In this document: in pieces, positions 2,605 to 60,227 of the stretch | Layout of the letters: each line of letters begins with the position of its first letter | How positions within the stretch are numbered: position 1 is the stretch's first letter | Assembly: GCF_018138385.1 (NCBI RefSeq) | Contig: NZ_JAGSIE010000006.1 | Location: 62,001-126,000, forward strand | DNA from: Allobacillus saliphilus | GTDB lineage: Bacteria > Bacillota > Bacilli > Bacillales > Alkalibacillaceae | Direction of reading: 5' to 3' | Length of the DNA: 64,000 nucleotides | Notes under the pieces: generated by a model | Database searches by the model: none | What the model saw: only the letters and a program-made list of their open reading frames with translations | Told to the model about the DNA's origin: nothing | Translations under genes and position numbers: made by a program

Positions 2605-3902
<1,298 letters not shown>

Positions 3903-3992: not shown

Positions 3993-4742
3993 ATGTTTAC
4001 TCGGTCGAAAGAAAAGCAATCCGTTCAAAAAGAAATCGATCCATCCAATTTACCGGAACATATTGCCATTATCATGGACGGAAATGGACGGTGGGCAAAA
4101 AAGAGGGGGTTGCCTCGGATTGCCGGACACCGGGAAGGAATGAAAACCATTCAAAAAGTGGTTGAACGTGCCGTTGAACTAAATCTTAAAGCATTAACGT
4201 TATATGCTTTTTCAACAGAAAACTGGAAAAGACCAATGAATGAAGTGGAATTTATTATGAAGCTTCCCTCTCAGTTTCTGGACACTTATTTACCAGATTT
4301 AGTTAAAAACAACGTGAAAGTAACAACGATTGGCGACTTTGATGCCTTGCCTAAATATACCAAGGAAGCAGTCAGTTATTCTGTGAAAAAAACGGAGAAC
4401 AACACAGGATTAATACTTAACTTCGCAATTAATTACGGCAGTCGCAAAGAAATTTTAGATGCTGTAAAGCAAATTTGCCTAGATTATCAGGAAGGTCAAA
4501 TGGACCTTGATAATCTGGATGAAAAAGCGTTTTCAAATTATTTGACTACCCATTCGTTGAGTGATCCTGATTTGGTTATTCGCACAAGTGGTGAACAACG
4601 CATCAGCAATTATTTGTTATGGCAAATCGCCTATTCAGAATTTTATTTTACAGAAAAACTTTGGCCAGATTTTAATCAAAAAGCCTTGGATGAGGCTATT
4701 TTAGCTTATCAAGACCGTAAGAGAAGGTTTGGTGGGCTATAG
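3993..4742 (+). CDS. uppS: Undecaprenyl diphosphate synthase
   Basis: 249 aa. Cis-prenyltransferase that makes the C55 lipid carrier for peptidoglycan and teichoic acid. The catalytic Asp is D29 in IAIIMDGNGRWAKKR. Also seen: RIAGHREGM, LTLYAFSTENWKRP, ILNFAINYGSR and the C-terminal RTSGEQRISNYLLWQIAYSE. GAGGG ribosome binding site 7 nt before the ATG. First gene of uppS-cdsA-dxr-rseP, the conserved envelope and isoprenoid cluster. Transcription start is not obvious after the frr terminator. Confidence 0.97.
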   Translation: MFTRSKEKQSVQKEIDPSNLPEHIAIIMDGNGRWAKKRGLPRIAGHREGMKTIQKVVERAVELNLKALTLYAFSTENWKRPMNEVEFIMKLPSQFLDTYLPDLVKNNVKVTTIGDFDALPKYTKEAVSYSVKKTENNTGLILNFAINYGSRKEILDAVKQICLDYQEGQMDLDNLDEKAFSNYLTTHSLSDPDLVIRTSGEQRISNYLLWQIAYSEFYFTEKLWPDFNQKALDEAILAYQDRKRRFGGL

Positions 4743-32533: not shown

Positions 32534-32593
32534 GAATAGACTACGAAGCAGCCATACTTGGCTGCTTTACTGATTTATTTCGAGGTGAAGAAA

Positions 32594-34861
32594 GTGGCAA
32601 AAAAGAAAAAGAGAAATAGAAGAAAAAATAATCGGAAGTCGAATCTGTATTTTGAACTGATTGGACTGGCGTTCATCCTATTTGCCATTTTTTCAAGTGG
32701 GATTCCAATGATTTCAAGCGGAGTGATTCCGCATGTTTTAGTAACGTTACTCCAATGGTTATTTGGCTTTTGGTATATAGTAATTAGCGGATTTATCTTC
32801 TTTATAGGAATCTATCTATTAATTAAACGAAAATGGCCGGATTTTAAATCAATTCGCTGGATGGGTTTTTATCTATTATTTGCTTCGTTATTGTTATTTA
32901 CACACGTACAAACATTTGAAACGATTGTACAAGCAACGACCCAAAATATATTTGGGTTAACATGGGACTATTATGAAGCTTATCAAAACGGAGAAGTAGA
33001 TTATTCAGCAATTGGTGCGGGTATGACAGGTGCGTTGTTATTCGTAGGCAGTTTTTATTTATTATCTGGTGTCGGTTCGAAAGTTGTTGCAACATTTGCG
33101 ATTATTTTTGGAATCATTATGCTGACAGAGAAGTCAATTATTGATGTCATCAAAGGGTTTTTCGGAAAAGTACAAGCTCGATTTGCCAGTATCCGCGATA
33201 AACGAGCCGAGCGTAAGGAAGCCGCCGAGAAGGAAAAAGAAGAAAAACTAGAAATCGAAAATTCATATGAAATGACGGAATCTGAATCAACTCCAGTCAT
33301 TGAAGACTTCCAGTCAGTAGAACCCGAAAATGTTGAACCTGAGTCTATGGAAATCGAGACGAATGAGTGGACGGAAAATGTAGAAGAGCTTCCTGAAGAG
33401 GGAGAGGAAGTGATGGCTTTAACAGAGGTAGAGAATGAGTCGTACCGTTTACCATCCCTTCAGCTACTTGCAAGTCCAGTCAATCATTCTCAGCAACAGG
33501 AGAAATCGCAAATTCAATCCACAGTAAGAAAGCTTGAACAAACGTTTCATAGCTTTGGTGTTAAAGCTAGAGTTTCAAAAGTGCATGTAGGGCCAGCAGT
33601 TACGAAATATGAAGTTAATCCTGATATCGGGGTGAAAGTAAGTAAAATTGTCAATTTACACGATGACTTGGCACTTGCCCTTGCTGCGCGCGATATACGT
33701 ATTGAGGCACCGATACCAGGGAAGTCAGCGATTGGTATTGAAGTGCCGAACTCAGAGGTTGCTCAAGTATCGCTTCGTGAAGTAATGCAACCACAAATGA
33801 AACCTGAATCCAAGCTGCTCTTTGGCTTAGGTCGAGATATTGCTGGTGAATCCATTGCTTCTGAGTTGAATAAAATGCCTCACTTACTGATTGCCGGTGC
33901 AACAGGAAGCGGTAAAAGTGTTTGTGTCAATGGTATTATTACGAGCATTTTACTACGGGCAAAACCACATGAAGTGAAGATGATGATGATTGATCCAAAA
34001 AAAGTGGAGTTGAATGTGTATAATGGCATTCCACATCTATTGGCTCCTGTAGTAACGGATCCTAAAAAAGCATCTAAAGCATTGAAAAAAATCGTCTCTG
34101 AAATGGAAAGAAGATATGATTTGTTTTCGGAGACAGCAACGAGGAATATTGAAGGATACAATGAACATGTCGACCGAGTGAATGAAGAAGAAGGCGAAAA
34201 CCATCCTCACCTTCCGTATATCGTTGTATTAATTGATGAGTTGGCGGATTTAATGATGGTTGCTTCGAATGAAGTAGAAGATGCGATCACACGATTAGCT
34301 CAAATGGCAAGGGCTGCAGGAATTCATCTAATTATCGCAACACAGCGCCCGTCAGTGGATGTCATTACAGGAGTAATCAAAGCAAATATTCCATCGCGAA
34401 TTGCTTTTAGTGTCTCCTCAGCTACAGACTCTCGTACGATTTTAGATGGGAATGGTGCTGAGAAGTTGCTTGGTAAAGGGGATATGCTTTTCTTGCCTGT
34501 CGGTGCGTCCAAGCCTACAAGAATTCAAGGGGCATTCTTGTCCGATGAGGAAGTCGAACGTGTTGTTGACCATTGTATTGCACAACAGAAAGCACAATAT
34601 CAGGAAGAGATGATTCCTGAGGAAACGTCAACAGATATGGAAGAAGTAGATGATGATCTGTACGACGATGCTGTCCAGTTAATCATTGAAATGCAAAGTG
34701 CCAGTGTTTCGATGCTTCAACGTAAATTCAGAGTAGGCTATACGAGAGCTGCGAGACTGATCGATGCCATGGAAGAAAGAGGAATTGTCGGTCCATATGA
34801 AGGAAGTAAACCAAGGAAAGTACTGGTCAGCCAACAGCCTGAAGAAACATCGATGCAATAA
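32594..34861 (+). CDS. spoIIIE: DNA translocase SpoIIIE (FtsK family)
   Basis: 755 aa. Pumps the chromosome into the forespore through the sporulation septum. Four membrane spans in the first 150 residues, an acidic linker (about 190-290), the beta domain, the RecA-like motor with Walker [14 protein letters not shown] (about 434) and Walker [12 protein letters not shown], and a winged-helix gamma domain (about 690-745, [18 protein letters not shown]) that reads SRS-type polarity sequences. GTG 32594 follows GAGGTGA and gives the family start with a K-rich MAKKKKRN. The tepA-ylzJ-spoIIIE order supports SpoIIIE rather than SftA. Confidence 0.96.
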
Positions 34862-34867
34862 GACTTA

Positions 34868-34902
34868 TAAAACTAGTCAAGAATGTCTTGACTAGTTTTT
34901 TC
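34868..34902 (+). terminator. Intrinsic terminator after spoIIIE
   Basis: AAACTAGTCAAGA (34870-34882) and TCTTGACTAGTTT (34886-34898), 13-bp perfect stem, 3-nt loop, then T-run. Confidence 0.92.
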
Positions 34903-34984
34903 GTGGCTTAAAATATTTGTTAGGTTAAATACACAACATAGCTTAGGTTTCGATGACGGTCGTTGGTGGCAGACGTTCTTAAAG

Positions 34985-35173
34985 CTTCAGTGTTAAACAG
35001 GCTGTCTTCAGTGTTTAATCGAGAGGCTTCAGGGTTAATTTGCGGTGACTCAGGGTTTTTCAGTGAGGGTTCAGGGTTAATTTGAAGACCTTCAGTGTTT
35101 AATCGAGAGACTTCAGGGTTAATTCACGAATCTTCAGGGTTAATCCGCAAACCTTCAGTATACGTTCTTCATC
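34985..35173. repeat. Intergenic tandem array A, 21-bp period, nine units
   Basis: Units start at 34985, 35006, 35027, 35048, 35069, 35090, 35111, 35132 and 35153, exactly 21 bp apart. The shared core is CTTCAGGGTTAAT (some units CTTCAGTGTTTAAT); the remaining 7-8 bp vary. Stop codons interrupt all six frames across the array, so it does not encode a repeat protein despite the multiple-of-three period. Confidence 0.9.
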
Positions 35174-35201: not shown

Positions 35202-35249
35202 AAAACAGCATCAACCGAACTTAAAAGACTACTCGGTTGATGCTGTTTT
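35202..35249. terminator. Strong bidirectional hairpin terminator with no adjacent gene
   Basis: AAAACAGCATCAACCGA (35202-35218) and TCGGTTGATGCTGTTTT (35233-35249), a 17-bp perfect stem with a 14-nt loop and A/T tracts on both sides. No gene ends nearby: spoIIIE has its own terminator 300 nt upstream, and the next gene is on the same strand downstream. Confidence 0.8.
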
Positions 35250-35367: not shown

Positions 35368-36096
35368 ATGAAAGTGAAAGAAGTTGCTGATTTAGTGGGC
35401 ATTAGTGTGCGCACCCTTCATCATTATGATGAAATTGGTTTGTTGATTCCTGAAGATACGACTGAAGCGGGTTATCGAGTGTATTCTGAGAAGAATCTTG
35501 AGGACCTACAGCAGATTTTATTTTTTAAAGAGCTCGGTTTCAACTTGAAAAAAATTAAAGAAATCATGGATAGTCCAATTTTTGATCGCCAAGAGGCATT
35601 ACGTATGCAACATCAGATGCTTTTAGAAAAAAGAAAACGACTCAACAAGATGATAGCAACGATTGAAAAGACAATAAAACATTCGCAAGGAGAGATCTCA
35701 ATGTCAAGTGAGGAAAAATTTGAAGGCTTTGACTTTAATCAAAACCCATACGAAAAAGAGGCAAGAGAAAAATGGGGTGACAAAGCAGTTGATCAAGCAA
35801 ATGAAAAAACAAAAAATATGACTACGTTTGAACAAGAACGATTTAACGATATTTTTCGTCGTCTCGCCGACATTCGTCATTTATCACCCGAATCAGAAAA
35901 AGCACAAGCAATGATCCAAGAATGGTATCAATACTTGAATAAAATAGGGAACTATTCGCTTGAGGCATTCAAAGGCTTAGGAGAAATGTATGTGAATGAT
36001 GAGCGCTTTACGAAAAACATCGATCAATTCGGTGAAGGTTTAGCCCAATTCATGTGTGCTGCGATGAGCGTTTATACAGACCGAAATAAAAAATAA
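35368..36096 (+). CDS. MerR-family regulator with TipAS-like effector domain
   Basis: 242 aa. N-terminal MerR winged helix (1-70: MKVKEVADLVGISVRTLHHYDEIGLL, Y-R-V-Y-S), a dimerising coiled coil (about 75-110), and a C-terminal antibiotic-sensing TipAS-type domain (about 115-240) with conserved aromatic and acidic residues. The architecture is that of Mta and TipAL, which sense drugs and activate multidrug transporters. Ribosome binding site GAAAGGAG. No transporter gene is adjacent, so its targets other than itself are unknown. It sits between two repeat-array spacers where B. subtilis has other genes, which suggests insertion or local replacement. Confidence 0.85.
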   Translation: MKVKEVADLVGISVRTLHHYDEIGLLIPEDTTEAGYRVYSEKNLEDLQQILFFKELGFNLKKIKEIMDSPIFDRQEALRMQHQMLLEKRKRLNKMIATIEKTIKHSQGEISMSSEEKFEGFDFNQNPYEKEAREKWGDKAVDQANEKTKNMTTFEQERFNDIFRRLADIRHLSPESEKAQAMIQEWYQYLNKIGNYSLEAFKGLGEMYVNDERFTKNIDQFGEGLAQFMCAAMSVYTDRNKK

Positions 36097-36192: not shown

Positions 36193-36297
36193 AGCCGTCG
36201 AAAAACCGGGTGAAGCCGCCGAAAACCCAAGTGAAGCCGCCGAAAAATCAAGCGAAGCCGCCGAAAACCCAAGCGAAGCCGCCGATAAAATGGTGGA
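36193..36297. repeat. Intergenic tandem array B, 21-bp period, five units
   Basis: Units start at 36193, 36214, 36235, 36256 and 36277, exactly 21 bp apart. The core is AGCCGCCGAAAA followed by a variable CC(C/G)(A/G)-type linker ending GTGA or GCGA. Degenerate partial units flank both sides. Read on the minus strand it gives a heptapeptide FRRLxxx. Confidence 0.9.
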
Positions 36298-59977: not shown

Positions 59978-60070
59978 TTAACCAACTCTTATTTATCCTA
60001 GCGGCTTTCTGTTCGAATGGTGCCCACCGAAATCTCTCCGGCAGTCGGTGTTCCTACTGAAAATTTAGCG

Positions 60071-60227
60071 AGCCGCCCGATAAACGCGACGAGCCGCCCG
60101 ACAAACTCGTCGAGCCACCCGATGAGCGCACCGAGCCACCCGACAAGCGCGCCGAGCCGCCCGATCAGCCGTCCCAGCCGCCCGATAAATGAATCAATCC
60201 GCCCGATATTAGTGGTTAGTCGTTCGA
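60071..60227. repeat. Intergenic tandem array C, 21-bp period, eight units
   Basis: Units start at 60071, 60092, 60113, 60134, 60155, 60176, 60197 and 60218, exactly 21 bp apart. The core is AGCCGCCCGA (variants AGCCACCCGA, ATCCGCCCGA, last unit AGTCGTTCGA); about 11 bp vary. Read on the + strand it gives a heptapeptide SRPxxxx. Much more GC-rich than the flanks. Confidence 0.92.

Follow-up and report, generated by a model that had tools for sequence, protein, structure and literature searches.

Dispersed arrays of 21-bp units with a conserved core in Allobacillus: putative phased protein-binding sites

The genome of Allobacillus saliphilus, a salt-loving relative of Bacillus, has a dispersed family of intergenic arrays in which a 13-bp core, CTTCAGBGTTAAT, recurs every 21 bp and is followed by an 8-bp linker that varies in sequence. 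We analyzed one member, array A, in a window of 64,000 nucleotides of the 2.54 Mb draft genome (hereafter G000), and compared the family with arrays in a second Allobacillus species (G001) and in other genomes. On balance, we consider it likely that array A consists of protein-binding sites in helical phase and belongs to a dispersed family with a nucleoid-organizing or insulating role. The array described in the initial annotation is indeed present, but it is one of dozens in the genome, and its class has already been published. The between-species comparisons, the spacing, and the negative tests for coding and for RNA structure, described below, are what the present analysis contributes to its interpretation.

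Structure and context of array A

Array A is located 123 bp 3' of a gene of the FtsK/SpoIIIE family and ∼200 bp 5' of a gene encoding a MerR/TipAS regulator. The features of this part of the window are as follows.

32558–34861, plus strand: FtsK/SpoIIIE-family gene, upstream context
34869–34899 (approximate), plus strand: terminator-like hairpin (from folding) followed by a T run, just 3' of the FtsK-type gene
34907–34984 (approximate), plus strand: 5' module of array A, resembling the sequence upstream of some paralogous arrays
34985–35173, plus strand: array A, nine 21-bp units, each with core CTTCAGBGTTAAT and an 8-bp variable linker; last unit degenerate
35202–35249, strand not applicable: hairpin of 17 pairs just past array A, flanked by A and T tails and resembling a terminator in either direction
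35368–36096, plus strand: MerR/TipAS-type regulator gene, downstream context

Neither of the two hairpins flanking array A (34869–34899 and 35202–35249) was reported by a dedicated terminator scan. The FtsK gene of the window has 99% identity to its counterpart in Allobacillus salarius SKP4-8, and the region downstream of this gene, including array A, is nearly identical in that strain, which places G000 very near A. salarius within the genus.

The nine units start at 34985 and follow one another at a period of exactly 21 bp, as initially annotated, and this regularity held up in a randomized-sequence test: identity at lag 21 is 104 of 168, whereas 1,000 dinucleotide shuffles average 43.5 and reach at most 64. 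Starts were described as CTTCAG or close variants, and they are CTTCAG in seven of nine units, ACTCAG in unit 4, and GTTCAG in unit 5. Eight of the nine registered sites match CTTCAG in at least five of six letters, compared with three or fewer in 300 shuffles of 1.2 kb. The proposed division of units into 13 conserved positions and a variable remainder is accurate overall, with 1.5–2 bits of information at core columns 2–6 and 8–10 and just 0.1–0.8 bits at columns 15 and 17–21. It needs amending in two respects: the 13-bp core varies at its positions 7 and 11, and the ninth unit matches the core only to about position 8, so likeness to the repeat fades before 35173. Stops interrupt all six frames of array A, again as annotated, with one forward frame having a single stop and one reverse frame having two.

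Distribution of the family in Allobacillus

The initial annotation had proposed searching the whole genome and relatives for the core at 21-bp spacing. This search identified at least 26 intergenic arrays with the same core and period in G000 and at least 23 in G001. The core, with one mismatch or less, occurs 100 times in G000, mostly in runs spaced at 21 bp, compared with six times for the reversed pattern. The census of G000 covered 28 stretches around core matches plus the window and yielded 27 arrays, reduced to 26 because those at loci L009 and L028 are duplicates, and the census of G001 covered 20 stretches and yielded 23 arrays. The duplicates are one array region found on two contigs (C2 and C31) with flanks that are identical for 300 bp on each side, which points to a duplicated region or to redundancy between contigs. 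The consensus of the core, taken over 197 and 223 units, is CTTCAGBGTTAAT; position 7 varies, conservation is weaker at positions 11 and 13, and linker positions 18–21 carry 0.35 bits or less. Spacing between units equals 21 bp in 384 of 390 cases (47 arrays, both species); the exceptions are 20 bp (four cases), 19 bp (one), and 23 bp (one).

The distribution of the core is narrow. A pattern of paired cores is present in both genomes of the genus and in two of 22 genomes of the family, both Allobacillus, and among 397 genomes drawn from the order (without G001) it was found in G000 and, as one lone weak pair, in G320. No array of core CTTCAGBGTTAAT was uncovered in viral contigs by exact pattern or in phages and plasmids by blastn (E up to 1). 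Within G000, a recurring 20-bp hairpin sequence has 14 copies (three mismatches or fewer), seven of which are within ∼190 bp of a core site. Some paralogous arrays also have upstream and downstream modules in common.

Arrays are located between genes. In G000, 24 of 26 arrays are between called genes, one is at the edge of its locus, and one was called inside an ORF. The intervals are 18 tandem, five convergent, and one divergent in G000, and 17 tandem, six convergent, and none divergent in G001; for arrays of Gracilibacillus, described below, they are 16 tandem, nine convergent, and one divergent. Divergent intervals are under-used, at two of 73 arrays versus 39 of 241 background intervals (P = 0.001), a comparison in which genes were called with a home-made codon score and the background includes the array intervals themselves. 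Relative to tandem genes, orientation of arrays shows no clear bias (11 same and seven opposite in G000; nine and eight in G001). The lack of a clear orientation bias and the rarity in divergent intervals fit an element that functions at the level of DNA.

Conservation and turnover between species

Array loci of the two Allobacillus species align at about 81–98% identity, mostly 83–90%, which allowed the comparison of core and linker columns that had been proposed as a check. Across 72 unit pairs, 43 of 720 core sites differ between species versus 241 of 576 linker sites; the core is kept and the linker has diverged. The comparison is based on 10 of 16 array pairs and on 10 core positions, with 7, 11, and 13 set aside. 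Units were aligned at the shift that maximizes linker identity, and the comparison excluded six pairs whose linker identity did not exceed 0.50. Since both choices favor linkers that are alike, the resulting bias opposes the conclusion that linkers have diverged. Alignments of flanks between G000 and G001 have 0.065 gap openings per mismatch, a rate that takes in coding sequence and is derived from 31 rows, three of which pair paralogous rather than orthologous loci. At this rate, unconstrained linkers that are so diverged should have lost phase far more often than they have.

Most of the compared arrays keep their place and orientation between the two species. A G000 array is present at the matching place for 16 of 23 G001 arrays, 13 of which were matched by script and three by alignments that cross a G000 array (L156, L158, and the array at 8063 of L166). 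Orientation is identical in every one of the 13 script-matched cases. The script assigned two of these G001 arrays to one G000 array, but alignment assigns them separate partners in L020. The number of units often differs at matched loci (for example, nine vs. 19). For six of the remaining G001 arrays, no counterpart was fetched or could be resolved.

Other arrays have been gained or lost whole. In L169 of G001, a 5' module and array of ∼400 bp (2923–3359) directly follow a terminator-like hairpin, and the G000 equivalent is a direct junction (L010, 3143–3179) that represents a near-clean empty site. Conversely, the array at 4014–4215 of L010 in G000 is without a counterpart in G001. The two arrays occupy distinct places in an 8-kb region, and each species lacks the array of the other. 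The array of L023 in G000 is likewise missing from G001.

Period-21 arrays with other cores

The window has two additional arrays with the same period and different cores.

36193–36290, minus strand: second period-21 array, core TTTTCGGCGGCTTC (minus strand)
60069–60206, minus strand: third period-21 array, core TCGGGCGGC (minus strand)

In all, about five cores occur at period 21 in G000, such as TTTGAACGGT, TCGGGCGGC, GCATATC, and TGACTGTTGATAA, and one of the five slips phase. A pair pattern for TCGGGCGGC has 24 matches in G000 and 16 in G001. Some arrays of other cores have linkers that are near-identical. In L017 of G000 (contig C13, 7287–7773), neighboring GCATATC arrays have a phase slip inside the run, and two more period-21 arrays are located within 8 kb.

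Arrays in Gracilibacillus have a different design. When 79 FtsK neighborhoods of other genera were scanned, one lag-21 array was identified at the stricter cut, in Gracilibacillus kekensis, with core CTTNACNGGATA. The corresponding pair pattern (three mismatches or fewer) has 185 matches in G. kekensis and 49 in G. massiliensis and is absent from 17 other genomes tested, including that of G. timonensis. Among 27 chains listed for 20 stretches of G. kekensis, 26 change from forward to inverted orientation and the other appears to be due to chance; eight chains reach four units in each orientation, one of them with a stray ninth match. The 21-bp register survives the flip in orientation in nearly all chains (26 arrays aligned). 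In a test of hairpin covariation over 25 arrays, linkers match at 0.39 between partners and 0.38 between nonpartners, and variable sites of the core match at 0.73 and 0.67, respectively, a difference that is weak at best. As linkers of opposing units are no more alike than other linkers, the arrangement represents a dyad of sites, not a conserved hairpin.

Motif scans covered 397 genomes of the order for a CTTCA triple at 21 bp, 12 selected genomes for the reversed triple, and 199 genomes for scrambled CTCAT. They led to additional period-21 families that have other cores and are spread over several GTDB families, with Alkalibacillus haloalkaliphilus NBRC 103110 as one carrier; these arrays of other genera are a sample chosen by motif rather than a census. 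The CTTCA triple matched 297 of 397 genomes, mostly at one or a few sites and with many matches in coding-like sequence, and this count is therefore uninformative on arrays. The suggestion that all lineages share a conserved start of CTTC was dropped because the scrambled CTCAT at 21 bp also found large array families. The control indicates that the period is special and CTTC is not. Genomes G113 and G200 have 370 and 227 matches, respectively, to the reversed control (TACTC triples, 21 bp), possibly representing more large families. By a crude test, 23 of 24 arrays in nine of the genomes identified in these scans are outside long ORFs; of 20 arrays of other genomes, six are in an ORF that reaches at least 60 codons past the array, which is ambiguous. 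Spacing equals 21 bp in 123 of 152 cases in five other genome groups, with 28 cases of 19 or 20 bp and one of 22 bp. The presence of 19 and 20 beside 21 fits helical rather than codon phase.

Alternative explanations

Three explanations concern what an array might encode or produce. We give hardly any credence to the idea that arrays encode small proteins with heptapeptide repeats and for this reason have a period of 21 nucleotides. This period is a multiple of three, the most open frame is stop-free in 25 of 49 Allobacillus arrays on the forward strand and in 12 of 49 on the reverse strand, and the arrays have slightly fewer stops than their column shuffles (47 vs. a mean of 58.9 and a range of 45–73, forward; 72 vs. 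89.5 and 74–104, reverse). However, no frame is open throughout all 49 arrays, and array A has stops in all six frames. Where spacing departs from 21 bp, it takes values of 19, 20, and 23 (Allobacillus) or 19, 20, and 22 (elsewhere) and never 18 or 24, and the units in Gracilibacillus switch strand within an array. Coding for the class as a whole was rejected because of the stops and because no off-spacing is divisible by three, in agreement with the initial view that heptapeptides do not account for the period. Somewhat less remote, though still improbable, is that arrays are transcribed as noncoding RNAs, with the transcript of array A bounded by the terminator-like hairpins on both sides. 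These hairpins do flank array A, its forward strand alone folds beyond dinucleotide shuffles (z = −3.55, and −5.20 with both flanks), and 52-nt repeats of Bacillus coagulans are reported as transcribed in the accessible parts of two papers (PMC8161180, PMC8625621). Against transcription, the z of the reverse strand is 0.04, arrays have no clear orientation relative to genes, hairpin partners in Gracilibacillus are barely above nonpartners, and an Rfam search had no match at the gathering score. When the first 12 units of each of 49 arrays were compared with linker-swapped controls, mean z was 0.16 (forward) and 0.13 (reverse), with five of 49 arrays below −2 on each strand. Selected RNA structure was rejected, as the signal seen for array A is gone for the family under these controls. 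Last, there is next to no chance that array A encodes guide RNAs in the manner of CRISPR or TIGR arrays, with linkers serving as spacers. A constant core with a variable 8-bp linker is what such an array would have, but the genome has no fewer than 26 arrays, all of a single repeat type. In TIGR arrays, as described in the accessible part of one report (PMC12045711), edge and loop repeats alternate beside a tas gene; array A has one repeat type and its neighbors are FtsK and MerR/TipAS genes, and TIGR was rejected as a candidate.

Two other explanations concern how arrays arise or spread. The main rival to an array of binding sites is a selfish or mobile satellite, in which some recombination or transposition activity recognizes the core and thereby spreads and resizes the arrays, the host gaining nothing, and we regard this as a real though lesser possibility. 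Several of the patterns above favor it, namely a core that is restricted to the genus and is at many loci, numbers of units that differ between species, 5' and 3' modules common to some paralogous arrays, the near-clean empty site of L169 and L010, and the absence from G001 of the arrays in L010 (4014–4215) and L023. Weighing against it, a tie to a transposase was not found in searches for Y1_Tnp, the REP-associated type, which has no match in G000, one in G001, and several in Gracilibacillus genomes. In addition, 16 of 23 G001 arrays keep their matching G000 place, and strict 21-bp spacing combined with diverged linkers demands constraint beyond copying. REP and BIME elements with RAYT transposases, to the extent described in the accessible part of one study (PMC2817692), are similar in their extragenic dispersal and regular spacing, and BIMEs alternate in orientation. 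REPs are palindromic, unlike the Allobacillus core, and RAYT-associated REP elements were rejected on this basis and because Y1_Tnp has no match in G000. Much less probable than a selfish satellite is a neutral one, with period and likeness resulting only from slippage and recent tandem duplication. Varying numbers of units, and the near-identical linkers in some arrays of other cores, are what slippage would leave. In the family of array A, however, linkers differ between neighboring units and from locus to locus, yet all 26 loci retain the core, and spacing is far stricter than predicted from the indel rate of flanks. As initially annotated, linkers that vary in this way do not fit recent slippage duplication.

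A putative platform for a DNA-binding protein

We favor the interpretation of arrays as phased binding sites. A sequence-specific DNA-binding protein would occupy the 13-bp cores, approximately nine of them in array A, along one face of the helix. Occupancy is proposed to be cooperative because neighboring sites are exactly two turns apart, and probably is so because few of the listed core sites in G000 stand alone. Dispersed platforms with multiple sites would suit a nucleoid-organizing or insulating protein over a regulator bound to promoters. Support for this interpretation comes from a family with one core and one spacing, a core that is conserved beside diverged linkers, loci matched between species, strict spacing at 21 bp, placement between genes with no clear orientation bias and few divergent intervals, a flip in Gracilibacillus that keeps register, and the spacings of 19 and 20 bp in other genome groups. 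Counting against it are the arrays gained or lost whole, as would be expected of a mobile or selfish element. Gene conversion between arrays could be responsible for part of the uniformity of the core.

The initial annotation interpreted array A as repeated, helically phased binding sites. Its pattern is borne out by the conserved core, the diverged linkers, and the spacing of 21 bp in 384 of 390 cases; the phasing is deduced from that spacing, and binding itself is a suggestion. A narrow search for a binder, covering ParB_N paralogues and Y1_Tnp, found no candidate. Because several period-21 families with different cores are present in one genome, one binder would not explain all arrays. ParB/Noc was considered because the Gracilibacillus core resembles parS and NBS, and rejected because there is no extra paralogue: each of 12 genomes has two ParB_N proteins irrespective of whether it carries such arrays. 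The Noc/ParB comparison recovered Spo0J-type proteins only. NBS-like sites (two mismatches or fewer) number five in 283 kb of G000 (one in the control) and one in 159 kb of G402 (one in the control).

A broader idea, which we offer with considerable doubt, is that Bacillales arrays of 20–21 nt and 52 nt are loading platforms for one fast-evolving family of DNA-binding proteins, with sites spaced by whole turns of the helix, either two or five. If this is true, the core would change from lineage to lineage while geometry is fixed, with a dyad in some lineages, and such arrays would be a bacterial counterpart of satellite-based chromatin.

Relation to known repeats

Subirana and Messeguer reportedly dealt with constant-size tandem repeats of 20–21 nt in an earlier paper of 2020 in J Bacteriol (e00229-20). 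The constant size of repeats in such arrays is an open question in print. In the accessible part of their later survey of 2021 (PMC8161180), tandem repeats of Bacillus have a constant size of 20–21 or 52 nt and a variable sequence, with several families per genome; those of 20–21 nt are generally noncoding and species-specific and have a short conserved signal. The authors noted that 20–21 nt corresponds to two helical turns and proposed either a protein that polymerizes on DNA or small RNAs. Array A is a member of this 20–21 nt class as far as the accessible description goes, because it has the features that were examined. It has nine units of 21 bp, where the class is delimited by a length of 20–21 nt and at least four repeats. 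G000 has several families of the same length (about five cores at period 21), a short conserved sequence is evident over 197 and 223 units, and the core is specific to close relatives (two of 22 family genomes, both Allobacillus). The partial conservation between strains and the seldom-kept length that the same part of the survey describes for 52-nt repeats are also matched by the Allobacillus arrays: 16 of 23 in G001 have a counterpart in G000, often with another number of units, and some arrays are missing in one species.

Relative to the published class as described in that part of the survey, we add a comparison of core and linker between species, a spacing statistic, placement and orientation, tests that were negative for coding and for structured RNA, one empty site, and the flip in Gracilibacillus. 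Unlike in the survey, so far as its accessible part extends, the conserved core, the diverging linker, and a two-turn spacing that survives reversal of units are told apart here. That part makes no mention of a forward-plus-inverted design, and the word Gracilibacillus is absent from the main text. A search of the open-access literature found no report of these Allobacillus repeats or of the forward-plus-inverted design of Gracilibacillus. The binding-site interpretation is directly testable in one genome that has at least 26 arrays of one core.

The TAACTGA direct repeats of Beggiatoaceae (PMC4679880, accessible part) are likewise abundant, intergenic, short-motif direct repeats that are possible binding sites. 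The 52-nt constant-size repeats described by Subirana and Messeguer are found in Allobacillus as well, with a different period, different sequences, and units that seemingly have inverted halves; 52 nt would be about five helical turns. In L025 of G000 (contig C20, 61–688), a tandem array has 12 units of 52 nt, seemingly with inverted halves, and other 52-nt arrays are present in L036 (3816–3987, shorter) and, with eight units, in L160 of G001 (110–534).
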